A stretch of DNA of 64,000 nt from Chryseobacterium indicum (lineage in GTDB: Bacteria > Bacteroidota > Bacteroidia > Flavobacteriales > Weeksellaceae), in contig NZ_JACSGT010000002.1 in NCBI RefSeq assembly GCF_021504595.1, positions 558,001-622,000 of the forward strand, in the 5' to 3' direction. Each line of letters begins with the position of its first letter. Position 1 is the stretch's first letter. The notes beneath the pieces are model-generated. The model saw only the letters and a program-made list of their open reading frames with translations, did no database searches and was not told where the DNA came from. Position numbers and translations under genes: made by a program. Below are positions 52,260-64,000 of the stretch, in pieces.

Positions 52260-52417
52260 ATTATATATTAACGACAAAATACCTCTTAGCGACCCAAGCG
52301 GAAATTTTTCTCAGATAAGCTATGATTTATAAAGTGTTGAGTTACTTTTGGAAGATATAAATACTTTGTTATAAATTATGATTTTAGTATGTTTTAAATC
52401 AAAAGTATGAGATGAAC

Positions 52418-52453
52418 TAAAAAAAGCAGGCATGAGATACCTGCTTTTTTTAT
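52418..52453 (+). terminator. Terminator AAAAAGCAGG/CCTGCTTTTTT
   Basis: A strong stem with loop CATGAGATA and T run, downstream of the receptor-like gene. Confidence 0.85.
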
Positions 52454-52682
52454 ATCACAAAAACACAATATACCGTATATCTTGTAGGTTTAATGGTGAT
52501 GAAACATTACAAATCATTACTTTCGTTTTCTTCCCATTGAAAGCAATACATTTATATACAGCAGGGATGAACTTATCTATCTGCCTTTGGAAAGCAAGTT
52601 CGATTTTCAGAATAAGATTGATAATACTGAGTAATTTTGTATTGCTCGATATAGACCATTAAAGAAATTTAATCTTTTTAAA

Positions 52683-52715: not shown

Positions 52716-53147
52716 TCATTCTTTTTTGCAGAATTCATGGAGGTAATAAGAAACCGTGTCCCAGTTGATACCTTCTTCACGGTTATGTTCTGCAATCATT
52801 CGGTATAGGGCTTTCATAAATTCACTCCTTTCAAACAAAGGCTGTCCGGCAATTTTTTCCAGTTCTTTTGCCTTCTCTTCAAAATGCTCCTCTTTCCAGA
52901 TGACAACAGTTTCCAGATGGGAGAGTCTTTCTACAATCTCCTGATGTCCCATATTCGGAAATACAGGGGTTCCCACCTTTTCAGAAACAATAATCAAGAC
53001 CTCGCTTTTTTTGGGAGCTAAAGGATGAGCCGCCATCTGGGCTGCAACCTGTCCGTTTTCTGCTTCTACCGCTCCGAATTCATACTTTACAAAATAGAAT
53101 GTTTTGTCTTTACTCATAATACTGTAATTTTTTACCTGAACTTCCAT
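52716..53147 (-). CDS. Hypothetical protein, 143 aa
   Basis: A soluble Glu-rich protein (KAKELEKIAGQPLFERSEFMKAL). Trp is coded by UGG, and the gene ends with UGA followed at once by a terminator, so it uses the standard code. This is the last clearly standard gene before the recoded block. No domain was recognised. Confidence 0.7.
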   Translation of the reverse strand: MEVQVKNYSIMSKDKTFYFVKYEFGAVEAENGQVAAQMAAHPLAPKKSEVLIIVSEKVGTPVFPNMGHQEIVERLSHLETVVIWKEEHFEEKAKELEKIAGQPLFERSEFMKALYRMIAEHNREEGINWDTVSYYLHEFCKKE

Positions 53148-53345: not shown

Positions 53346-53822
53346 ATGCTTCACAGTCTTAAAATGTTCAATACGGGACAGATCACCCTCCCAAAAGCGT
53401 GGAGATCAAAATACAATACCCAGAATTTCATTGCCCGGGAAACTTCGGAAGGATTACTCATCACCCCGCTGGTTGCTAAAGAAACAACATCGGGATACTA
53501 TGAAAACGGGGAGGAATCCGGCATTTATTTTCCGGACTGAAGCAGTCCCGAAGTCCTCACTGCAAATATCAAAAAGCCTCAAAATGATCATGTAATTTCG
53601 GGTTTTGTGCAAAAAATTCCCCTTAAAGAAACGCAAAAGCTTCTTACACTCTTATATGCAATCAGCAATAAAGAGCGAAAAAAATATCCGTATACTCCTC
53701 TCTCTGAACTTCCCCAACACTTTAAACTCTCACATTGAAACCGGCGTGTTGTTTTTTATCAGAAAGAAAACTATACCAGAATCCAGAATATAAGCTGTCT
53801 AAAGACTGAATCTGATGCTTAA
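53346..53822 (+). CDS. AbrB/SpoVT-fold protein with two in-frame UGA codons, 158 aa if read through
   Basis: The N-terminal swapped-hairpin motif reads FNTGQITLPKAWRSKY (about 8-24). A standard reading stops at UGA 53538-53540 after 64 residues (YFPD). The same frame then runs on as SSPEVLTANIKK and is coherent through a second UGA (53736-53738) to UAA at 53820-53822. With UGA as Gly and CGG (53742-53744) as Trp the end reads FKLSHGNWRVVFYQKENYT. The first stop could be genuine, leaving a 64-aa MazE-like protein. The coherent extension argues against that. It is probably a DNA-binding regulator of the plasmid-like block. Confidence 0.6.
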
Positions 53823-53972
53823 GGATAATAAATCATACCAATGTATGGCACTTATTATATCCCTTTTTGGGAAAATGTACATTAAAAATTAATGAATTTA
53901 ATGAATTGCTCTTGATTTAATGAAATTAATGAATAGTATGATGCTGTTCATTTATTTTGTAATCAACATCTT

Positions 53973-54320
53973 ATGAAAACAAACACAATAGAGTTCGACA
54001 GGATCAGGATGAAACTAAACAAAATGGCTTCTCTGAAACCTGAAAAGAAATTAAAAGCATTGGTAGCATATCATGCTGTACATGATGACAACCCTATGGA
54101 TTTCTTTAGCTATATCAGGGAAGGAGGTTCAGAAGTACTGTTCTACTACAATGAAGAAGAAAATGCGTGAGAAGAATTATACAGCATGTACCAAAAGGAT
54201 ATTGAAAAACTCATTGCTACCCATCAGATACAGGTTCAGCCATGAGAAAGCAAAGGAAGTATGTACCGAAAAGCCTTTGACAAAACTGCTGAATTGCTGG
54301 AACAGGAACTCAATAATTAA
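53973..54320 (+). CDS. Conserved-type hypothetical protein with two in-frame UGA codons, 115 aa if read through
   Basis: Starts MKTNTIEFDRIRMKLNK. UGA occurs at 54168-54170 and 54243-54245. Between and after them the frame gives sensible helices (EELYSMYQKDIEKLIATHQI and SMYRKAFDKTAELLEQEL) and ends at UAA 54318-54320, followed by a terminator. A standard reading would stop after 65 residues. No function can be assigned. Confidence 0.6.
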
Positions 54321-54334
54321 TACCCTTATGCTAT

Positions 54335-54363
54335 AAGACCGGAAGAAAATATTCCGGTCTTTT
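54335..54363 (+). terminator. Terminator AAGACCGGAA/TTCCGGTCTT
   Basis: A perfect 10-bp stem with a 7-base loop and T run, 15 bases after the UAA at 54318. It supports that UAA, not the internal UGAs, ends the preceding gene. Confidence 0.85.
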
Positions 54364-54558
54364 GGATGTAAGGAATCTTTAAGATTATCCATTAAGAATT
54401 TCAGCGCGTTTATCACATTGCTCAAACGACTTATACACAGGAGTCGTGCATAAGCCTTCTTGTTTCGTTTTGTGTGTTTTGTCATGTCTATCGGGGATTT
54501 TTCTCCCGAAGGAATTTCTACCTTATAATTTTACAGGAGAATTTTAAACCAAATTATT

Positions 54559-54810
54559 ATGACAAAAAAACCAATGACCGCAGCAGATGTGGCAAGAATC
54601 CAGAGAGCAACAGCAAAAGCCAATGGAGGAATTATCCCCAAAGGGAGTTTCGCAGCAAGAGCACAGCGAATACTGGCAAAAAAGCCAATAACCGCAGCAG
54701 ATGTGGCAAGAATCAAAAGTGCTACCGCAAAAGCTAATGGAGGAATTATCCCCAAAGGGAGTTTTGCAGCAAGAGCAGAAAGTGAACTGGCAAAAAAAGC
54801 TAAAAAGTAG
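54559..54810 (+). CDS. Small protein made of a tandem repeat, 83 aa
   Basis: Two copies of a unit of about 42 residues (ADVARI...ATAKANGGIIPKGSFAARA), nearly identical in DNA as well, so a recent duplication. It is Ala/Lys-rich and basic, ending AKKAKK. Small proteins with the KANGG-IPKGSFAA motif occur in flavobacterial mobile DNA; the function is unknown. It ends with UAG and has no in-frame UGA. Confidence 0.7.
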   Translation: MTKKPMTAADVARIQRATAKANGGIIPKGSFAARAQRILAKKPITAADVARIKSATAKANGGIIPKGSFAARAESELAKKAKK

Positions 54811-54814
54811 ATGG

Positions 54815-54846
54815 AAAGGGTTTATCTTTAAGGTTAACCCTTTTTT
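54815..54846 (+). terminator. Terminator after the repeat protein
   Basis: AAAGGGTT (54815-54822) pairs with AACCCTTT (54836-54843), followed by T. Confidence 0.75.
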
Positions 54847-54865
54847 CTGTTTAAACTCATTTATT

Positions 54866-55720
54866 ATGGCCATTACCCTTACTGAAAAACTGAACCTTAT
54901 GGTTTATGATACCCAAGCTCCGAAATATATCCGGTATTCCGAAAAAATATTTAATCATACAAAGAATAATGAAGCGCGTTTTACCGGATTTATAAAAGAA
55001 CCTGACTTTAAAACCTTTCTAACTTCTTTGCAGTCTCAATTTTCAGAATTTGAAGACGTATTGGTGGTTGATCCTAAAATGAAGCCTGATCTTGCCATGT
55101 TCAATACCCTTTCAGATATTATTTTATATTATCCTCTTCTCATTGACCTTATTATAAAGAACAACCAACCTGAAATTCTGCAATTATTCATTCGCATTTT
55201 TATTCTTCTGGAGATACATCTAAAAACCGTTACATCCATTAAAGGCAGGAAATTACTCCTTTATAATGATGAGCTCTCCCGGTATATGGAGAATAAGATT
55301 CTTTTCAGCCAAAGCGAAATTGCCCGGGAATGGGAAATTGATAACAATACCCTTTCCAAATGGCTGATCATGATTTATGGGAAGAACCCCTACAGAGGAA
55401 GAAAGAAGCTTTCTTTTTCTGAATACATCAGCATCTATAAAGATCTTTTCAAAGGAAAGTCTGATCATGAAAACCCGCAAGACTATTTTCTGACCGAAGA
55501 AAATATTGATGCTTACAGTTCTATCGTATTTAAAGGTAAAACCTATACAAAACAAGAGATTATTGAATTTGGGTTTTCTCTGGATGATGAACCTTCGCCG
55601 CGGCAGTATTCCGAGGCAAGAAAAATTCTCCTGAAAAAATTCCCGGATTATGATACCGTTAATAAGTATCCCGTTTCCATTGCCAATATAATGATCAGCG
55701 TGCTGCAAGAAAATTCCTGA
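54866..55720 (+). CDS. Hypothetical protein with HTH-like segment, 284 aa
   Basis: The start chosen is ATG 54866 (MAITLTEKLNLM), after the terminator of the previous gene; the frame is open further upstream. About residues 150-185 look like an HTH (SQSEIAREWEIDNNTLSKWL). It uses UGG for Trp. It ends at UGA 55718-55720, with UAA only three codons on (55727-55729), so code usage cannot be judged from its end. CGG codons here fit Arg as well as Trp. Confidence 0.65.
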   Translation: MAITLTEKLNLMVYDTQAPKYIRYSEKIFNHTKNNEARFTGFIKEPDFKTFLTSLQSQFSEFEDVLVVDPKMKPDLAMFNTLSDIILYYPLLIDLIIKNNQPEILQLFIRIFILLEIHLKTVTSIKGRKLLLYNDELSRYMENKILFSQSEIAREWEIDNNTLSKWLIMIYGKNPYRGRKKLSFSEYISIYKDLFKGKSDHENPQDYFLTEENIDAYSSIVFKGKTYTKQEIIEFGFSLDDEPSPRQYSEARKILLKKFPDYDTVNKYPVSIANIMISVLQENS

Positions 55721-55725
55721 AACAA

Positions 55726-56949
55726 TTAATTCTGTATGGTGTCCATTTCCAGGAGTTTTTTATCGATAAACGCCTGCAAAAATTTATTAACCTTTGCATT
55801 TTCGTAATCTTTTTTCATCAGGGCATAAAGAAAATGGTTCTGATAGGATTCCAGAACTTCAAGAATAAATTCCTCACTCATATACTCTTCTCTTAATTTC
55901 TGAAGCTTTTGCTCACGTTGAGAAGCTTCATTTTGCTTTGTCGACTCCTCTGCTTCTTGGTTCTTGCTTCTTGTCTCTTGGTTCTTTTCTCTCAACTTTT
56001 CGTTTTCAATCTCCTGCTGATAGAATCCTTTCTCGAGTGCTTTTAAGAAAAATCAGGCTTTACTGTCCACTTTATTCTTTTTAAAGTAGGATCTGCAATG
56101 TTCCAAAGTCTTAAGCGTATAGCTTTCTTCATATTTTCCTAAGATTTCATTTTTTATTACCGATTCAGAGAGCCCGAAATCCTGCATTTCACCGTAGGCA
56201 ATTTTTCAGGGAGCATTGTCCGGTCTCTCTTCTCCGGTCTCTTCCCCTTTACTGCTGATTATTTTTCATGTTGGCGTATTGGGATGAATAGAGAACTGTA
56301 TCTTCTCCACACGTCTTGAGTTTTCAGAAATTTCTTTAAATGTAAAACGGATATCGGTGAACATTTCCAGATCTTTCTGGCTTTTGAGCAAAATTTTATT
56401 TTTAAAGTTGGAGTACTTTGAATAGCTGTTTTCGACTCCTAAGATTTCTTTCAGTTCCTGCAGGGAGAATGTCTTCTGTTTCACTCCCTCAAAGGTTTTG
56501 AGAAGCTCAAAAATACGAATGGATGTGGCGGAACTGATTTGAAGAATATTGGACAGATTGTACAAAAGGAATTTTGATTTGAGCTGGAGAAGATAGGGCT
56601 TGAGGATAGGATTAAAAGTAGCTTCTATGACTCCTCTGCCTGAAACCTCATACTTAAAGCTGGACATGAGCGTACTTTTTATTTCTTTCTGGACTCCTTC
56701 TTCCTGAACGGGAATCACAATTATTTTTTTAAGCATGGAAGTGGTCACCTGCTGGATTTCTGCATAAATCGTTTTGGATTTAAGGTTAAAGGTTTTCATC
56801 ATATCCTTAACGGCAATCCTGTAGGTTTTGAAATCCTCGTCACGGTCATCGATCATACTGACGATGAGCGAAAAAAGACGCAGTTCCAAAAGACTGAAAG
56901 AGAATTTTCCCATGACCAGTTCATGACTTTTTTTTACGAGTTGATTCAT
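55726..56949 (-). CDS. Plasmid replication initiator (Rep_3/RepB type) with three in-frame UGA codons, 407 aa if read through
   Basis: The first 227 residues carry the winged-helix initiator pattern (LVMGKFSFSLLELRLFSLIVSMID at the start, split here as two helices; later LLYNLSNILQIS and IRIFELLKTFE). A standard reading ends at UGA 56266-56268. The same frame continues through UGA at 56206-56208 and 56053-56055 to UAA at 55726. The extension contains KIAYGEMQDFGLSESVIKN and KA-UGA-FFLKALEKGFY, typical of initiator C-termini, where Gly is the common residue (NPAGYLIKA-like). It is upstream of iteron-like repeats and defines a plasmid-like replicon. Confidence 0.7.
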
Positions 56950-57139
56950 TATTTTTGTTTAGAAAGTAAAATAAGAGGCTAGATTTTAGCAGATATGAGA
57001 TAGAAGACATAAGACATAAGATTCGAGTAACAGGATCCCAGGATTTAAGACAAGAGATTTCGAATTCATTGTAAAACTAAATATTGGAGCAATCATTCAT
57101 CGGCTACCACTAATAGCTACCAGTACCCCCGATCAGTAG

Positions 57140-57300
57140 CCGTAATTGGAACATTTTTGTCCCACTTTGGCAGCACTCCCCCAAATTTGTAATATTGATG
57201 CCCGGTTTTGGTTATAGATCAGTCTGTTTTGGTATCCTGAATCCCCCACAGGAGTATCTTTTTGCCCCGCTTTAGAAGCTTTTCGCCCCGTTGTGGATGC
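57140..57300. repeat. Iteron-like repeats upstream of the initiator gene
   Basis: Three similar motifs: TTTTTGTCCCACTTTGG, TTTTTGCCCCGCTTTAG and CTTTTCGCCCCGTTGTGG, in the 627-base gap between the initiator (start 56949) and 57577. Such repeats are the usual binding sites of Rep_3 initiators. The rest of the gap holds no believable gene. Confidence 0.5.
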
Positions 57301-57576
57301 TGAGTCCTTTCAGATAAGGCTTTGCAACTATGGTTTGTGGCACGGTAAGAAATATAATACTTTCAATAATAAGACAACATATTATAATAGAAGTGGTAAA
57401 GTTGTTGTTATTTTTTTCTGTTTAAAAAGGGTTTAAACACGTATAAACAGGATACTTTAACCGATTTTCGTTTATTTTGTTCTGTATCAGTTATTTGTAG
57501 GGCTACTTTTTCGGGGCAGGAACTTCTGACCTTCGTCCGCCCTTATTTCGGGGGTGTTACTCCTCTGTTTATTGTT

Positions 57577-58152
57577 TTAGAATTGCAGTTTACCAAAGAT
57601 AACCAGCAGTACAAATCCAGTGAATAAAATCAGCAATGCTATAGAAATAATTCAAAAAGCTGTGGCACGGATGGAGATTTTCACATATTTTTCAGATAGT
57701 TCTGAATGTCTGGTCTCAATATGCTCCCTCTGTAATCTTAGCTCCTGATTCTGTTCCTTCATCACATTGATTGCCCATTGGCTGGTTTTAAGTTCTGCTT
57801 CTTTTTCTTTGAGTCTGATTTGTAAATCATATTTTTCCTGCAGTATTTCCTGATGAGACTCCAGTTGGGATTCCGACTCCTCTGCTTCGGAGACTTTATC
57901 ATTCTGAGATGGATTGTGACCAAAGTTGAGCTTGTCTTTTCATAAGGCTTTTGCCATTTTCTGCAGATCCTCTTCTGTGATATAGACACTTTTTCCTCTC
58001 TCATTAATTTTGCTGACCAGTTGAATTCCTAAATTTTTTGATCGTTTGTAAAAGGTCGTCTGGCTGATCTCCAGCATTCTTTCTGCATCTGCTTTTGGAT
58101 AATCCATAATACTAGATAACGAATTAAATATCTGATAACCATCGGTTATCAT
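57577..58152 (-). CDS. HTH/coiled-coil/membrane-anchor protein with two in-frame UGA codons, 191 aa if read through
   Basis: The N-terminal part (residues 18-60) has MerR-like HTH features (PKADAERMLEISQTTFYKRS, then YITEEDLQKMAKAL). A standard reading stops at UGA 57940-57942. Reading on gives a long coiled coil (LQEKYDLQIRLKEKEAELK), a UGG Trp, a second UGA at 57652-57654 within a hydrophobic segment (ISIALLILFTGFVLLVIFG), and UAA at 57577-57579. The completed protein would be a DNA-binding coiled coil with a membrane anchor, a plausible partition or replication accessory next to the initiator. Confidence 0.6.
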
Positions 58153-58797
58153 TGTGTATAGATCACAGTCTGCACCTGTACTTTCCGAGCCTCTTTCTCC
58201 CCTTATTGCAGGATGTTGCAGGGAAGTTTTGGGGGCATTACGAACTTGTAGTGAGTACGTTACGGGGTTGTAGCCCCCTTTGCAGGAGCTCGTAATAGGG
58301 GAGTAACAGGTAAGCTGCTTACTCCTCCATTATAGTGATAAAAAGCCATAAATCAAGGTGTTTTTTGTTTTCGGACTTTGTACGTCCCTGATAAAAGGTG
58401 TATCAACTTATACTAACCCTTGTTAAAACCCGTAATGGGCTTGTAATAAGGAAGAAATAAGATTGAATAGGGGCGTAAGAAGGTAATAATAAGGTGTCCC
58501 ATGATAAAATCAATAGATAAGCAGGGGAGCGTAATATTCATTGCCTGTGCGTTTTTTCAATCCCGTAATAAGGGTATTGCACCCTTTGAATAGGGCAGTA
58601 TATGAATTACCTGATAGAAACAGAGGAGCGGAGTGACCTGTTTTTTTTCAAAGGAATCCAAAATGGGACACTCAAGGGTGCCAATTTTCTTTTTTTAGCT
58701 TTTTAAATTTCTTCTCTATGTATTTTTATTGTTTTACTTCCTGCTTCTTGCTTCCCATCAATCTTCCAACTTCCTACTCCCTGCTTCCTGCCTTTCA
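58153..58797. other. Origin-like non-coding region with GTAATAAGG-type repeats
   Basis: 645 bases with no believable gene. Repeated motifs include CGTAATAGGGG (58292), CGTAATGGGC and TGTAATAAGG (58431-58451), GGTAATAATAAGG (58481) and CGTAATAAGGG (58563), plus a GGGG-TTGTAG-CCCC hairpin (58265-58278). Spacing and variation fit protein-binding iterons of a plasmid origin. It could equally be a regulatory region for the genes on either side. Confidence 0.45.
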
Positions 58798-59832
58798 CTA
58801 TGGGAACCGTTGTTTTTTTATTTCTGTGGTAATTCCTGCAATCATCAGGGGAGGCACGCTCATTCAACAGACATAGCGGGGAGAGATTCCGCAGAAGTCA
58901 AAATCAGAAGGAAAGCTGCTCATACGGAGATATTCGGTATCGTTGAGATTGCGGGCTTCGTTATAATAGAGTGTTGTGCCGCTTGAAGTAAGTGTTGGAG
59001 CAACAATGTTATCATAGAGAATATAGGTGCTAAAGAATGCATTATAGGTATTAAGTTTTCTGTATTTTGCATCAGCAAATTTTAAATTCTGATCACCATA
59101 TTCTACAAAAGGCCGTCTTTTTTGAATAGAAGGCCGGAGCGGAGGATGGGTAGTGGAGCCTTTATCGGCAATTTCACCAAAGTACACTGGGGAGCCGGCA
59201 AAATCCAACACCAGATCCGGAAGTTCCAAACTCCTTTTTCTACCAATAAAAAAGATACGTTCACGAGCCTGGGGAACTCCTGTTGTCGCAGCGTTGATCC
59301 TAAAGATCTGAACATTATACTCCATCTCGCTGAGTCTGTTGTATACTTCAATGGCATAGCGCTTTGCTTTTCATGCAATGATTCAGGGGACGTTTTCCAT
59401 TAAAACTACTTTGGGACTGAGCTTTTTCACCGTATCGCAGAATACAAATACCAGTTCGTCCAAAACCTGTTTCTTTTGTCCTTCTTTGAATACTTTTTCT
59501 TTTCACCGGTTCTGCTCACGTTTTCAGGACATGGAGAAGGCGCTGCACGGAGGAGAACCGTCCAGAATATCAAGGTGGTACAATTCCGGGGGCAGACCAT
59601 CTCTTTCATTAAAATCTCTCAGGTCTTCCAAATAAAAATATTCGGGGGAGTGATTCTTTTGGTAGATTTTTGCCATTTTCCTGTCGATCTCAACACCTCC
59701 AAGGTGACGGAATCCTGCGAGCTTGTAGCCCATGGTGGATCAGCCTCACCCGACAAAAGTTCAGAATACGGTAAGCCCGTTAGTTTTTGGATACCCTTCT
59801 TTTAGCGTTCGTCGATAGTGTAAATTTGTCAT
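58798..59832 (-). CDS. C5-cytosine DNA methyltransferase with eight in-frame UGA codons, 344 aa if read through
   Basis: Starting at ATG 59832 the single frame runs to UAG 58798-58800 and passes UGA at 59761, 59746, 59740, 59524, 59503, 59383, 59371 and 58864. With UGA as Gly it has motif I FVGGGGSTMGY, motif IV GSPPCSAFSMSG with the catalytic Cys, motif VI VLMENVPG (MENV), motif VIII TTGVPQARERIFFIGR, and a C-terminal CGMSVPPLMIA. Several of these Gly are nearly invariant in the family. UGG is absent. CGG (59506-59508) sits where RxxWGKEK is usual, and QCGGFP at the end fits QWFP. Read with the standard code it is a heavily broken gene. Confidence 0.75.
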
Positions 59833-59962
59833 AATCTTTTTTTAGTTTAACAATTGAAATCTGTTCATTTTTAAAGGCCTTTTGCCTGAGTCTCTGCCTG
59901 ATCCTGCGCTGGGTTCTGTGCTGCATCATGCGGATGGTTTTTTCTTTGGTTAGATGATTCAT
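59780..59962 (-). CDS. Small very basic protein, 60 aa, overlapping the methyltransferase start
   Basis: The frame from ATG 59962 to UAA 59780 overlaps the first 53 bases of the methyltransferase gene in another frame. It is rich in Arg/Lys/Gln (RTQRRIRQRLRQKAFK), as in nucleic-acid-binding peptides, and would be translationally coupled to the methyltransferase. No family was recognised. Confidence 0.45.
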   Translation of the reverse strand: MNHLTKEKTIRMMQHRTQRRIRQRLRQKAFKNEQISIVKLKKDYDKFTLSTNAKRRVSKN

Positions 59963-60129
59963 GTGTTTTTTGTTGAGAGGTAAAAATTTGTACAATGTAT
60001 AAAGTAGAATGTAAAATGTATGGAGTACAAAGTGTGGTGTATAAAGTATGAAGCTCAGTTAAACAATCACAATACATTGTACACCCGACATTCCACACCT
60101 GACAAAGTACAATATACATTCTACAGAGA

Positions 60130-60963
60130 TTAAATCGGATAATTAGCCACCAAAACCTCTGTCTTTCTTTTGGTACTGTTAGGATTCTTGCTTTTATGGG
60201 CGGCAGAGAGGGACTTGTCAAAAGTCTTTACATACCGGTTATGCTTTTGGGCAAAATCCATCAAAAGCTCAGAGGGGTAATTGGAGAGTAAAAACTTTCC
60301 TTTGATCTGGGAGAGTACGGTAAGATCACGCTCTAAATGCTGGTGGGTGTAGCCTTCATAATGTCCCTGATGGACTTTTATCCCGAGATCACTCGTATAA
60401 GGGGGATCGCAGTAGAAGAAGCTGTTTTCAGAATCCCTGCTCTGGATTATTTTGTGGGCCTGACTGCATTCGATCTGGGTACTACGCAGACGCAGCGAAA
60501 ATTCTTCCCCGAAACGTTCGACTTTGTTTTTAAAAACGGTTGCTGTTTTCTCTTTATCGAAACCCCGGCTTCAAGCGCGGTGAAGATAACCCATGTTGCA
60601 GGAAACATAGAAGGCCCGGGCTCTGATGACCGGCTGATCGTCAAATAACCGTGGGGAATTATAAATGATCATCGCTTTCTTGTATTCTTCCCTTGAATGC
60701 AGAGTCATATCTATTTTCTTTTTAAGTTCCGGAAAGTTTGTTTTGAGGACTTTATAAAAATTGATGACATTTCCGTTCACATCGTTGATGATTTCGCAGG
60801 GTGCTGTTTCCGGTTTCATCCGGAAAATCGCTCATCATCCGAAATACGGTTCGCAGTAGACTTTAATGTCTTTGGGAATAAGTGGGATGATTTCTTTCGC
60901 CATCATGATCTTTCATCAGAAGTAAGAGATAGGCGGTTTGAATATAAGCTTGCTTTGTAACAT
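60130..60963 (-). CDS. Dam-like N6-adenine DNA methyltransferase with five in-frame UGA codons, 277 aa if read through
   Basis: From ATG 60963 the frame continues to UAA 60130-60132 through UGA at 60916, 60913, 60835, 60832 and 60571. With UGA as Gly it reads PPISYFGGK and CEPYFGGGAIF, the family's SAM motif, in which two and two consecutive UGAs replace invariant Gly-Gly. HRAG-S then matches the IGSWGF motif. The catalytic DPPY appears in FFYCDPPYTSD. CGG occupies conserved Trp places (AIF-W, RA-W-AF, S-W-GFDK, HN-W). No UGG is used. The C-terminus KTEVLVANYPI is typical of this family. Confidence 0.8.
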
Positions 60964-61172: not shown

Positions 61173-62030
61173 TCAGCGGTGTTTCTTGTTTTTATTTTTG
61201 GGTCTGGAAGAAGAGAAAGAGGAGCCTGCCTGTTGACCGGACTCTTCATTCTCTGTTTCCGGATTATTTACATCTTCATCAAATACCTCAGATGCTGTTT
61301 CATTTTCTTCTTCAGGGGAGTGCTGCTCCCTACCGGAAAGTTCACCGGAAAACGCGGTATTTTCTTCTCCTAATGGTTCTTGAGAGTTTTCATTCTCCAG
61401 GTTTTCATTGTCCGGATCTTCAGAACTTCCGCTTTCCGGCAGTGCTTCAGAGGGTACAGATGACTTATTTTTCAGACTTTCCGTTGCGGGAATATGTTCT
61501 GTATCAGCATCCGTAGATTCTAATACTTCCCCAGAGGTTTCAGTCACTTCTGATAAAGACTCCGTTTCCGGTGAATCACCGGAAGAGAACGGAACTTCAT
61601 CATGAAATTCGGTATCCGATGAAGAATTTTCTTTTGCATTTTCTTCTGAACTTTCTTCTGTATTTTCAGAAATTAAAGATTCAGTGGATTGATTTTCACC
61701 TGCGGAGGAGTCGTTATTCTCCAACGCCGGAGCCGGGTTTTGCTTTTGCTGTTGTTCTTCTTTGAGCCATTTTTCACACATATAGATGATAATCTGGAAA
61801 TCGGACTCAATAAGATTCAGGATTTCTTCATTCTCCAGTTCCAGCAGGTTTTTCCCTTCAGGAAGCTGTTCCCCATACGTCTGGGAAACCATCTCCACCA
61901 GTTCTTTCCTTGAAAAATATTTAATCAGGACAGGACTGATGGTTTTGGCTGAAGAAGGTTCTTTTTCGGCGGCTTTCTTTTTCAAAAGCACCGAAAAGAT
62001 TTTCAGTAAGGATTGTTTGTTTGTATCCAT
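61173..62030 (-). CDS. Acidic low-complexity protein, 285 aa
   Basis: The first 110 residues are an ordered, Leu-rich domain (YFSRKELVEMVSQTYGEQ, then IIIYMCEKWLKEEQQQ). The rest is a Ser/Glu/Thr/Asn-rich acidic tail with irregular repeats and a basic end (RPKNKNKKHR). Trp is UGG. It ends at UGA, with no sensible protein beyond, so the standard code applies. Its function is unknown. Confidence 0.65.
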   Translation of the reverse strand: MDTNKQSLLKIFSVLLKKKAAEKEPSSAKTISPVLIKYFSRKELVEMVSQTYGEQLPEGKNLLELENEEILNLIESDFQIIIYMCEKWLKEEQQQKQNPAPALENNDSSAGENQSTESLISENTEESSEENAKENSSSDTEFHDEVPFSSGDSPETESLSEVTETSGEVLESTDADTEHIPATESLKNKSSVPSEALPESGSSEDPDNENLENENSQEPLGEENTAFSGELSGREQHSPEEENETASEVFDEDVNNPETENEESGQQAGSSFSSSRPKNKNKKHR

Positions 62031-62080: not shown

Positions 62081-62377
62081 TTATTCATTCAGATCATTAA
62101 ACCGGATTTCTTCAAAATAGCAGTCTCTTTCGATGGTAAGCCCGAACGGTAGTTTCAGGGTTTCCAGCTCATCGATGGAGAAGCTGCCCCATTCATCAAA
62201 GCCCATTCCGGTAACATATCCGAAGCAGATCCGCGTTTCAGGATCATATTCGGTGGCGTACCAGGTCTGCGGTCCGCAGGGATTGAAGAATCTGGCAATG
62301 ATCAGCGGGTTTTCTTCTTCACCCTGACTGCCGATTTCGGCAAATCTTACTTTCAGGGTTTCGGTCATTAATTTCAT
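62081..62377 (-). CDS. DUF2958-like protein, 98 aa
   Basis: The pattern QTWYATEYDPETRICFGYV, then EWGSFSIDELETLKLPFGLTIERDCYF, matches the small DUF2958-type proteins of Bacteroidetes and proteobacterial mobile elements. Trp is UGG and the stop is UAA. The function is unknown. Confidence 0.7.
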   Translation of the reverse strand: MKLMTETLKVRFAEIGSQGEEENPLIIARFFNPCGPQTWYATEYDPETRICFGYVTGMGFDEWGSFSIDELETLKLPFGLTIERDCYFEEIRFNDLNE

Positions 62378-62405: not shown

Positions 62406-62660
62406 CTATTTTATCAGATCATCCAGTCCTAATCTGCGGTAGATTTCGAGGTTATGTTCAAAAGCTCCTTTGCAGCGGAAACGAGGTTCTCTGTTTTCGC
62501 CTTCTGTTCCGTGGCAGATCTGATGGCTTTTAAACAAAGTCCTTACAATGACTTCATTCGCCAGCTTAGGATCCTGCCATCTTCCTTTCCCGTCCGGTTT
62601 GAACGGACAGGTGGAACAGAAGCTTTTCATCACGGGTACTTTTTCAGGATCGATTTTCAT
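62406..62660 (-). CDS. Small Cys-rich protein, 84 aa
   Basis: A CSTCPF motif, HQICHG and RCKG give four Cys and two His, arranged like a metal-binding site (residues 15-18, 46-50, 62). It lies 28 bases before the DUF2958-like gene. It is likely a zinc or iron-sulphur binding accessory protein. Confidence 0.65.
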   Translation of the reverse strand: MKIDPEKVPVMKSFCSTCPFKPDGKGRWQDPKLANEVIVRTLFKSHQICHGTEGENREPRFRCKGAFEHNLEIYRRLGLDDLIK

Positions 62661-63004: not shown

Positions 63005-63445
63005 TTATTTCATCCATATTTCTTTGGCTTTTTCAAAACCTACCCACTCGTGATTTTCATCAAATCCTCTTGAAGCCAGCTCATACCGGATGATTTTCTT
63101 AAGCGGTATTCTGTAATGAAGAATGAATCTGAGGATTTCTCCGTTCATGACGGAAAAAGCTCCCATCAATTCCTCCCAGTGAGGGAGGGGATCTTCATCA
63201 GTGCGGATAAGAGATATTTTGGCATAATTTATCCACTTATAATTCTCAGGAATAACAAACTGGAATTCCGTCTCCAGATCTTCAAGCATCGTCTGGTTGA
63301 CCACCGCATAATTGTTTTTGGGGCCTTCCAGAATTCCGAACTGTTCTTTCGCTTTTCTATGCTTAAAGTTCTGCCAGAGGGCAAAGTCTATAGCCTTATG
63401 GATGTCGTCAAAGTACTCAAGGAAAGGTTCTTTTTTCATATTCAT
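63005..63445 (-). CDS. Hypothetical protein, about 146 aa
   Basis: The likely start is the ATG at 63445 (MNMKKEPFLEYFDD); an earlier ATG at 63484 would overlap the upstream gene. The C-terminal IIRYELASRGFDENHEWVGF resembles a motif of flavobacterial mobile-element proteins in which the CGG codon stands for Arg, so the standard code applies here. The function is unknown. Confidence 0.65.
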   Translation of the reverse strand: MNMKKEPFLEYFDDIHKAIDFALWQNFKHRKAKEQFGILEGPKNNYAVVNQTMLEDLETEFQFVIPENYKWINYAKISLIRTDEDPLPHWEELMGAFSVMNGEILRFILHYRIPLKKIIRYELASRGFDENHEWVGFEKAKEIWMK

Positions 63446-63459
63446 TGTTTTTAACAATT

Positions 63460-63963
63460 TTATTTTTCCCTGATTTCTTTGCATTTATGTCTGCAGATGG
63501 TAATGAATTCATCATCATCCGGCAGTTCATTCAAAGGAAAGGCTGCCAGAAGTTTCACAGGATAATATTCCGAACCTTTTTTGTATATATCGAAGAAACG
63601 GTCCTCAGGAGTAATTCCTTCTCTGTTAAATCCTATATAGACTTCAAAGGTGTTTTTATCAAGATCAATCACATAGGCCCATTCACAGAAAAGACTGTCT
63701 GCAGCAAATGGGTAGGCATTGGCAAGGACAATTTCAGCATCTCCTTTATGATTGATGATCATTCTCAGAATATCTCCGCCTATATCACGATCAAGGAAAG
63801 GGTACCGCTTTTTAAAAAGTTTTGCCTGATCTAAAGTCATCCATCCTTCTTTTGAACCTATGCTTTCCAGAAAATCTTTAATTTCCTGTACATCCCGTTC
63901 ATTCTGGAATCTGACTTTGGGAAGTATTTTCTTTAATTTCTCGACATATGAAGGATTATCCAT
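63460..63963 (-). CDS. Hypothetical protein, 167 aa
   Basis: Soluble alpha/beta protein, with an N-terminal helical region and strands AYVIDLDKNTFEVYIG. Trp is UGG. It is the first gene of the minus-strand run at the window end; only 37 bases lie upstream of it in the window. Confidence 0.65.
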   Translation of the reverse strand: MDNPSYVEKLKKILPKVRFQNERDVQEIKDFLESIGSKEGWMTLDQAKLFKKRYPFLDRDIGGDILRMIINHKGDAEIVLANAYPFAADSLFCEWAYVIDLDKNTFEVYIGFNREGITPEDRFFDIYKKGSEYYPVKLLAAFPLNELPDDDEFITICRHKCKEIREK

Positions 63964-64000
63964 AAAGACAAGCAGGGTAAGTCCCTGTGCTTCCGGATAA

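Follow-up and report, generated by a model that had tools for sequence, protein, structure and literature searches.

Predicted use of a second genetic code by part of an integrated plasmid-like element in Chryseobacterium indicum

Introduction

Six neighboring genes of the flavobacterium Chryseobacterium indicum fall into fragments when translated with the standard code, which raises the question of the code, and the cell, in which they are meant to be read. The genes lie in the window analyzed here, a stretch of 64,000 nucleotides (C2:558001-622000, where C2 is contig NZ_JACSGT010000002.1 of a genome labelled G000, which has 4.84 Mb and 5 contigs), and they belong to an integrated, plasmid-like element with a Rep3 initiator, a VirD4-like ATPase and two DNA methyltransferases, only part of which is inside the window. 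A sequence-only reading of the window had proposed that the in-frame UGA codons of the six genes stand for glycine (Gly), as in NCBI code 25. Bacteria with different genetic codes are generally considered unable to exchange genes. The analysis below points to a two-code mobile element, the second gene set of which is likely meant (with a probability of roughly 60%) for translation in a cell of the Absconditabacteria (SR1) or a close relative, the element shuttling between such a cell and a flavobacterium.

Results

UGA Codons on Glycine Columns

The six genes are given below by window position, with strand in parentheses and lengths in amino acids (aa).

53346..53822 (+): recoded gene with 2 UGA and an N-terminal MazE/AbrB-like antitoxin match, which is weak (Pfam PF04014, residues 9-41, 21.1 bits, under the cut-off of 24.7).
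53973..54320 (+): recoded gene of family fam4 with 2 UGA and 1 CGA, the latter aligned by eye with tryptophan (Trp) of sister copies.
55726..56949 (-): Rep3-type plasmid replication initiator (Rep), 407 aa, 3 UGA, with TGG, CGA and CGG absent; matches to PF01051 (5.7e-32) and PF21205 (7.2e-12), both winged-helix domains; plasmid-borne homologues.
57577..58152 (-): recoded gene of family fam12 with 2 UGA, without Pfam match; helix-turn-helix, coiled coil and membrane segment recognized by eye.
58798..59832 (-): C5 cytosine DNA methyltransferase (C5), 344 aa, 8 UGA (Gly), without TGG, PF00145 at 1e-42.
60130..60963 (-): Dam-like D12 adenine DNA methyltransferase (Dam), 277 aa, 5 UGA (Gly), without TGG, PF02086 at 4.7e-27.

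As the sequence-only reading had stated, all six frames are open when UGA is read as sense, with 2, 2, 3, 2, 8 and 5 internal UGAs (22 in total) and neither UAA nor UAG inside. To score the residue at each UGA column, as that reading had suggested, Dam, C5 and Rep were aligned with the best 120 homologues each of 905, 7603 and 221, respectively. Homologues with Trp at a Gly column (27 for Dam, 16 for C5 and 13 for Rep) were dropped from the sets, leaving 84-104 rows for the methyltransferases; the dropped rows most likely stem from recoded relatives to which code 4 had been applied in translation. Thus, 56 of the 360 homologues listed look recoded and read with the wrong code, from which it seems that such elements occur widely in metagenomes and that databases misread them.

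All 13 UGAs of the window Dam (5/5) and C5 (8/8) are in columns that are 96-100% Gly among the non-recoded homologues. For Rep and the genes at 57577-58152 and 53973-54320, the proposal that UGA falls on Gly positions did not hold throughout: one of the three Rep UGAs is in a Gly/Ala column (50 Gly and 45 Ala of 102), and one UGA of the 57577-58152 gene is on a Gly column. The 53346 gene stood outside this scoring. Over the 16 scored sites of the window Dam, C5 and Rep, Gly nevertheless won, with a log-odds score of +31.7 against -38.4 for the runner-up, and control codons in the same scoring gave their normal residue in 54 of 55 cases.

The same result was obtained with relatives of these genes from 148 genomes of the genus and 320 of the family, the genomes being labelled with G-numbers. 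Within the genus, recoded C5 relatives were found in G143, G130 (two) and G110 (two, one of them partial), and this genome has a second copy; these relatives show 74-78% identity, 3-7 internal UGAs and no UAA or UAG. The family search (1e-40) gave nine genomes with a match, among which the only additional recoded one was G149 (contig JAFDZI010000031.1 of a metagenome-assembled genome). In total, five genomes hold eight recoded C5 copies, one of them partial, with 3-8 UGAs each and no other internal stop. The other family matches, in G076, G249 (Bergeyella) and, as a fragment, G244, are without internal UGA, and that in G246 (Cloacibacterium) has one TAG. In all recoded Dam, C5 and Rep copies taken together, UGA occurs in 42 columns, for which Gly scored +54.4 and the runner-up -65.5, and 25 of the 29 conserved columns holding UGA are Gly columns. 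Furthermore, one and the same column has UGA in some sister copies and a Gly codon in others, as synonymous codons would, and a few UGA columns have Asn, Pro, Thr or Ser in other copies. These alignments support Gly as the meaning of UGA in the recoded genes, and UGA as Trp (code 4) is ruled out because the UGA sites are Gly columns.

CGA and CGG Codons on Tryptophan Columns

A second recoding was overlooked by the sequence-only reading, namely CGA and CGG on Trp columns, so that code 25, correct for UGA, is incomplete for these genes. The recoded copies are poor in TGG, which makes up 10 of 2127 codons in Dam, 7 of 2536 in C5 and 4 of 2265 in Rep, as compared with 440 Trp in 24,110 residues, 473 in 35,545 and 322 in 37,902, respectively, in the homologues; the depletion is about 4-5 fold. 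At the Dam and C5 columns where homologues have Trp, the recoded copies hold mostly CGA or CGG. For example, one column has Trp in 93 of 96 homologues and CGA in 7 of 7 copies, and another has Trp in 103 of 104 and CGG in 6 copies and CGA in 1. The sole Trp column of Rep has Leu in the recoded copies. In a per-codon test on recoded Dam, C5 and Rep, CGA was assigned to Trp (11 columns, +38.2; arginine (Arg), -8.4), as was CGG (10 columns, +39.1; Arg, -6.3), and CGT, CGC, AGA and AGG were assigned to Arg. Of the sense codons tested, 59 of 61 matched the standard table, the two exceptions being CGA and CGG.

The window genes show the same pattern. Specifically, all 5 CGG of the window Dam and 5 of the 6 CGA/CGG of the window C5 are on Trp columns, which makes 10 of 11, the eleventh being on an Asp column; TGG is at none of the 10 Trp columns and nowhere else in either gene. 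Their conserved Arg columns hold AGA, AGG, CGT and CGC, besides single Thr and Lys codons, and never CGA or CGG. As a control, the nearest non-recoded C5 relatives (loci L121-L123 and L115) were examined: of the 18 cells readable at these Trp columns, 16 have TGG, and each of the 20 CGA/CGG codons is at a position where other rows show Arg or Lys. The Cloacibacterium C5 was excluded as a control because its frame breaks near residue 61; the Bergeyella frame is open. In addition, a RelB-like gene of G143 has CGA/CGG at positions where the copy in this genome has TGG. Judged by these alignments, CGA and CGG are Trp codons in recoded Dam, C5 and Rep.

Selection on the Read-Through Proteins

The ratio of nonsynonymous to synonymous substitution rates (dN/dS) downstream of the first UGA was 0.05-0.18 in pairs with unsaturated dS, also for fam12. 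Recoded C5 copies have stayed free of UAA and UAG in a set of pairs whose dS ranges from about 0.3 up to saturation. These substitution counts argue that the full read-through proteins are under purifying selection and have been so over long times.

Two Codes within One Element

Homology over 17-20 kb delimits the element at C2:610419-629755 in this genome (window position 52419 to past the window end), with a second copy at C2:525462-541462 and a copy in G143 at 1657297-1674606. The main gene run in G143 is fam9-17-6-19-18-17-Dam-C5-fam25-fam12-fam21-Rep, details of which vary in other copies. A sixth genome, G072, carries the element, in which C5 was not found. Counts were made on frames trimmed to the columns shared within a family. 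UGA makes up 111 of 427 Gly-type codons in the recoded families, whereas it makes up 6 of 343 in fam6, fam9, fam17, fam19, fam20, fam7 and fam18 together (Fisher test, 2e-24), and those six UGAs are all in fam18, close to its end. Among 63 members of the standard families, with fam16 counted as one of them, 10 have UGA as their stop. At Trp columns of the standard families (at least 2 TGG per column), TGG is the commonest codon; CGA/CGG is opposite Arg in 19 of 28 cells of fam6 and most often opposite Arg in fam9 (43 cells) and fam2 (6). The alignments thus indicate that only part of the element uses the second code and that its remaining genes use the standard code.

The family fam2, a TrwB/VirD4-like ATPase (TrwB-like domain above cut-off), and fam1, which is Replic_Relax-like (23.1 bits, under the cut-off of 25.3), occur in both states: six copies are UGA-free, save one UGA ahead of the conserved start, and those in G130b and G072 are recoded. 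Both families are oriented opposite to the main gene run. Where standard fam2 has Trp columns, the codons of the two recoded copies are CGG (twice), CGA and TGG (once each) and four others, besides four gaps. GC content at third codon positions is near 0.40 in the genes of the element, whether recoded or standard, and 0.32 in the host, and the second host is not identified by it.

A third UGA-rich locus of this genome is outside the window, at C2:652909-657868, with 19 in-frame UGAs in 9 frames. It encodes a sigma-70 factor (480 aa, 7 UGA), for which no relative was found in the other 147 genomes searched (1e-15), and small toxin-antitoxin-like genes. One of the small genes matches the ParE toxin family and its neighbor looks alike by eye, both having UGA in a GL-G stretch. 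Recoding would therefore not be confined to one element family.

Decoding Capacity of the Carriers

We next consider whether the carriers could read these genes. For this genome, the Rfam tRNA model, with which 150 of 382 candidates were scored, gave at least 86 matches. All save three weak ones were typed by ARAGORN at default settings, with no UCA anticodon among them. In the near-complete G143, 52 of 55 tRNA matches were typed, again without UCA. Patterns for a UCA anticodon loop had no match in this genome, G143, G130 or G072 (a single pattern in the case of G072) and none among the matches listed for G110, where the sole match of another pattern is not a tRNA. In short, tRNA-Gly(UCA) was not found in the elements or the host as searched (ARAGORN at default, at low threshold and with introns, Rfam, our own tRNA finder and patterns), so that the carrier is no member of the Absconditabacteria code group. 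Release factor RF2 exceeds the cut-off in each of 8 genomes, and the host has tRNA-Arg(UCG) and tRNA-Arg(ACG), by which CGA and CGG (hereafter CGR) mean Arg in the carrier. Around the window, UGA terminates 7 of 61 open reading frames of at least 200 aa (162 kb, the two islands left out), one of which overlaps the start codon of the next gene. The statement of the sequence-only reading that UGA ends genes elsewhere is borne out, and the second code is not that of the Bacteroidetes host; code 25 for the entire host is ruled out by the UGA stops in host genes and RF2.

Some further features of the translation apparatus were noted. Two tandem tRNA genes at C1:316909-317059 have 8-nucleotide anticodon loops with the four-base anticodon CUUC according to ARAGORN, which also reported tRNA arrays of 23 genes at C3:136166-157432, 13 genes in G130 (C18:14659-16940) and 11 genes in G110 (C11:355685-357330). 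None of these three arrays has a UCA tRNA, and the genes around the array at C3:136-157 kb use the standard code; weak tRNA-like matches near it (C3:125920-126059 and 156817) look degenerate. Besides RF1 and RF2, there is a short release-factor-like protein at C2:92174-92776, perhaps PrfH, with equivalents in five other genomes, that of G072 being broken by stops.

Other Features of the Element

The remaining features of the window copy are as follows.

52410..52580 (-): non-coding segment of 150 bp, conserved, at the element's left border, containing a terminator-like hairpin; identity 91% to G143, 93% to the second copy in this genome, 89% to C2:204313 and 83% to G072.
52716..53147 (-): fam20, 143 aa, standard code, UGA stop, terminator-like hairpin adjoining; in the two copies that this genome holds, UGA coincides with the end of the family, and the columns common to 8 copies are UGA-free.
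57300..57600 (-): conserved AT-rich stretch upstream of rep.
61173..62030 (-): fam17, 285 aa, standard code, UGA stop.
62081..62377 (-): fam7, 98 aa, without UGA.
62406..62660 (-): fam19, 84 aa, Cys-rich, without UGA, phrog_5443.
63005..63484 (-): fam6, 159 aa, standard code; TGG is the usual Trp codon and CGA/CGG is mainly paired with Arg.
63460..64000 (-): fam9, 204 aa, standard code, continuing beyond the window to C2:622074.

In sister copies, short repeats of the type CCCTGAAAATGTAGC are present upstream of rep (alignments of 4 and of 2 elements), and the AT-rich stretch with its repeats is likely an iteron origin. The fam9 family has relatives in large phages, which were found with the second fam9 copy (C2:622969-623604); its predicted structure was too poor for use (mean pLDDT, the predicted local distance difference test, 41.6). 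Some copies of the element have toxin-antitoxin-like genes, namely a ParE-like toxin (2 UGAs) with a RelB-like antitoxin (no UGA), both weak Pfam matches, and a gene with 2 UGAs that matches the YafQ toxin, accompanied by a weakly Phd-like antitoxin gene with 1 UGA. A tyrosine integrase (tyrosine recombinase) ending in UGA is alongside the G110 copy, and none was recognized in the window copy. Direct repeats of the attachment-site (att) type were not convincing at the ends of four copies. No virion structural family was found among the element proteins scanned (Pfam and PHROGs), the only related hit being a terminase-like PHROG match of the VirD4-like ATPase (1.8e-7).

Two side observations were made. 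The extra border-segment copy, at C2:204313-204470, is next to a fam20 remnant, which suggests a trace of a third element. At window position 54559-54810, there is an 83-aa frame composed of two 114-bp direct repeats (86% alike), with a match to a seed maturation protein family.

Discussion

According to PMC8629427, UGA as Gly together with CGA/CGG as Trp is the predicted code of Absconditabacteria, and the codon meanings that alignment gives for the element match it. The simplest account would be that translation in an Absconditabacteria-type cell shaped the evolution of the recoded genes and that the standard genes serve the flavobacterial stay. Specifically, in the flavobacterium, where UGA is a stop and CGR is Arg, the transfer genes, fam20, the fam16-9-17-6-19-18 run and, where present, the integrase would be made, and Rep, both methyltransferases and the toxin-like genes would be truncated, so that the element would be confined to the chromosome. 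If the cell instead had tRNA-Gly(UCA) and a tRNA-Trp for CGR, Rep and both methyltransferases would be made in full, which would let the element replicate from its iterons and methylate its own DNA. The element would thus be bilingual, each of two hosts from different phyla reading only its own gene set, and the code barrier would act as a switch between chromosomal residence in a flavobacterium and plasmid replication in an Absconditabacteria partner; we give this switch somewhat better than even odds. The division of fam1 and fam2 into six standard copies and two recoded ones looks as if copies differ in the cell that launches transfer. As a copy in Absconditabacteria was not found, we infer the second host, along with the transfer route and Rep-driven plasmid replication there.

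Several observations weigh against this reading. All genomes seen to carry recoded genes are flavobacterial. A C5 protein scan of 84,980 GTDB species gave 8 loci, none of which is named Absconditabacteria; 3 of its 6 peptide patterns contain Gly and are blind to UGA there. In PMC13059738, the hosts of Absconditicoccaceae are gammaproteobacteria and not Bacteroidota. At the codon level, the other two Rep UGAs are in variable columns with Gly in 0 of 95 and 2 of 96 rows, the other UGA of the 57577-58152 gene is on a Phe/Tyr column, and neither of the two in the 53973-54320 gene is on a Gly column (six divergent rows). Gly is the majority among others at 10 of 16 UGA sites of recoded fam2 and 5 of 6 of recoded fam1. 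Some Trp columns retain TGG, with one C5 column having it in 6 of 8 copies, and the partners of CGA/CGG are mixed in fam17, fam1 and fam2 and Glu in fam20, with one fam1 CGA on a Trp column. Finally, the YafQ-like toxin gene (two sister copies) carries CGA/CGG at a putative Arg position, which we presume to be Arg in the family, so that CGR as Trp may not be uniform across recoded genes.

The main rival to a second host is a helper, that is, an infecting phage or plasmid as the source of tRNA-Gly(UCA) and of a tRNA-Trp for CGR; the element would be a satellite with replication and modification genes that are on only in cells taken over by the helper. Recoded phages with suppressor tRNAs are known from PMC10746230 and PMC13059738, standard and recoded genes share one element, comparable to early and late phage genes, and fam9 is related to genes of large phages. 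However, the loci from pattern scans of viral contigs, at least 102, held 13 UCA tRNAs, none of them in an evidently recoded flavobacterial phage, and a helper would need to have arrived at the Absconditabacteria code including CGR as Trp. Viral contigs were also scanned with Rep, Dam, the ATPase and the sigma factor, which gave no relative. We regard a helper as unlikely.

Less likely is a hidden resident decoder, a split, intron-bearing or edited tRNA that is made by the flavobacterium or the element, was missed by the searches and provides a conditional second code. The third UGA-rich locus in the same genome (C2:652.9-657.9 kb) would fit it, but the searches named above (ARAGORN, Rfam and patterns) found no UCA tRNA, RF2 is in all eight genomes, and CGR as Trp would collide with the host tRNA-Arg(UCG); it is doubtful at best. 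Even less credence is due to a relic, in which genes from an Absconditabacteria plasmid are now silent baggage in flavobacteria. Carriers without a detected decoder and the partial second C5 copy of G110 agree with this, but the low dN/dS past the first UGA and the absence of UAA and UAG from recoded C5 do not. A sequencing or assembly artefact or pseudogenes, suggested by the fragmentary standard reading, has next to no probability and is ruled out by selection and recurrence across genomes: eight C5 copies in five genomes have 3-8 UGAs and no other stop, only UGA, CGA and CGG are shifted, to one residue each, and 56 of the 360 homologues look recoded as well.

If the two-host reading is true, genes are under selection in two codes, DNA regularly crosses the code barrier, and a genetic code is usable as a host-sensing switch. 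The element would also be a pointer to an unseen Absconditabacteria-type partner of Chryseobacterium-group bacteria, the hosts of such cells being difficult to trace. Annotation is affected as well, since proteins of such elements currently stand in databases with Trp in place of Gly and Arg in place of Trp. An earlier report of a two-code element was not found in the literature searched, outside which most subscription papers and bioRxiv lie.

In comparison with known systems, the code described for Absconditabacteria in PMC8629427 concerns the same three codons with the same new meanings, and no further tested codon deviates here. There, it is a whole-genome code with its own tRNAs, whereas its use in the present case is limited to part of a mobile element in a standard-code bacterium. 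Moreover, the same paper gives CGG and CGA as rare in most Absconditabacteria, while Dam and C5 of the element have them as their main Trp codons. NCBI table 25 (SR1, Gracilibacteria) likewise has UGA as Gly and, unlike these genes, keeps CGA and CGG as Arg. Recoded phages, including a UGA-as-Gly phage of Absconditicoccaceae, are likewise non-standard mobile DNA, some of it partly recoded; those of PMC13059738 and PMC10746230 carry a tRNA or infect a host of the same code, whereas for the element neither was seen and it is integrated in a host of another code. With integrative mobilizable elements and Rep3 iteron plasmids, the element shares Rep3, iteron-like repeats, a VirD4-like ATPase, a Replic_Relax-like protein and toxin-antitoxin-like genes, the likeness in the tyrosine integrase coming from one copy only. 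Unlike in those systems, its replication and modification genes would be unreadable by the carrier, as judged from the carrier's tRNAs.

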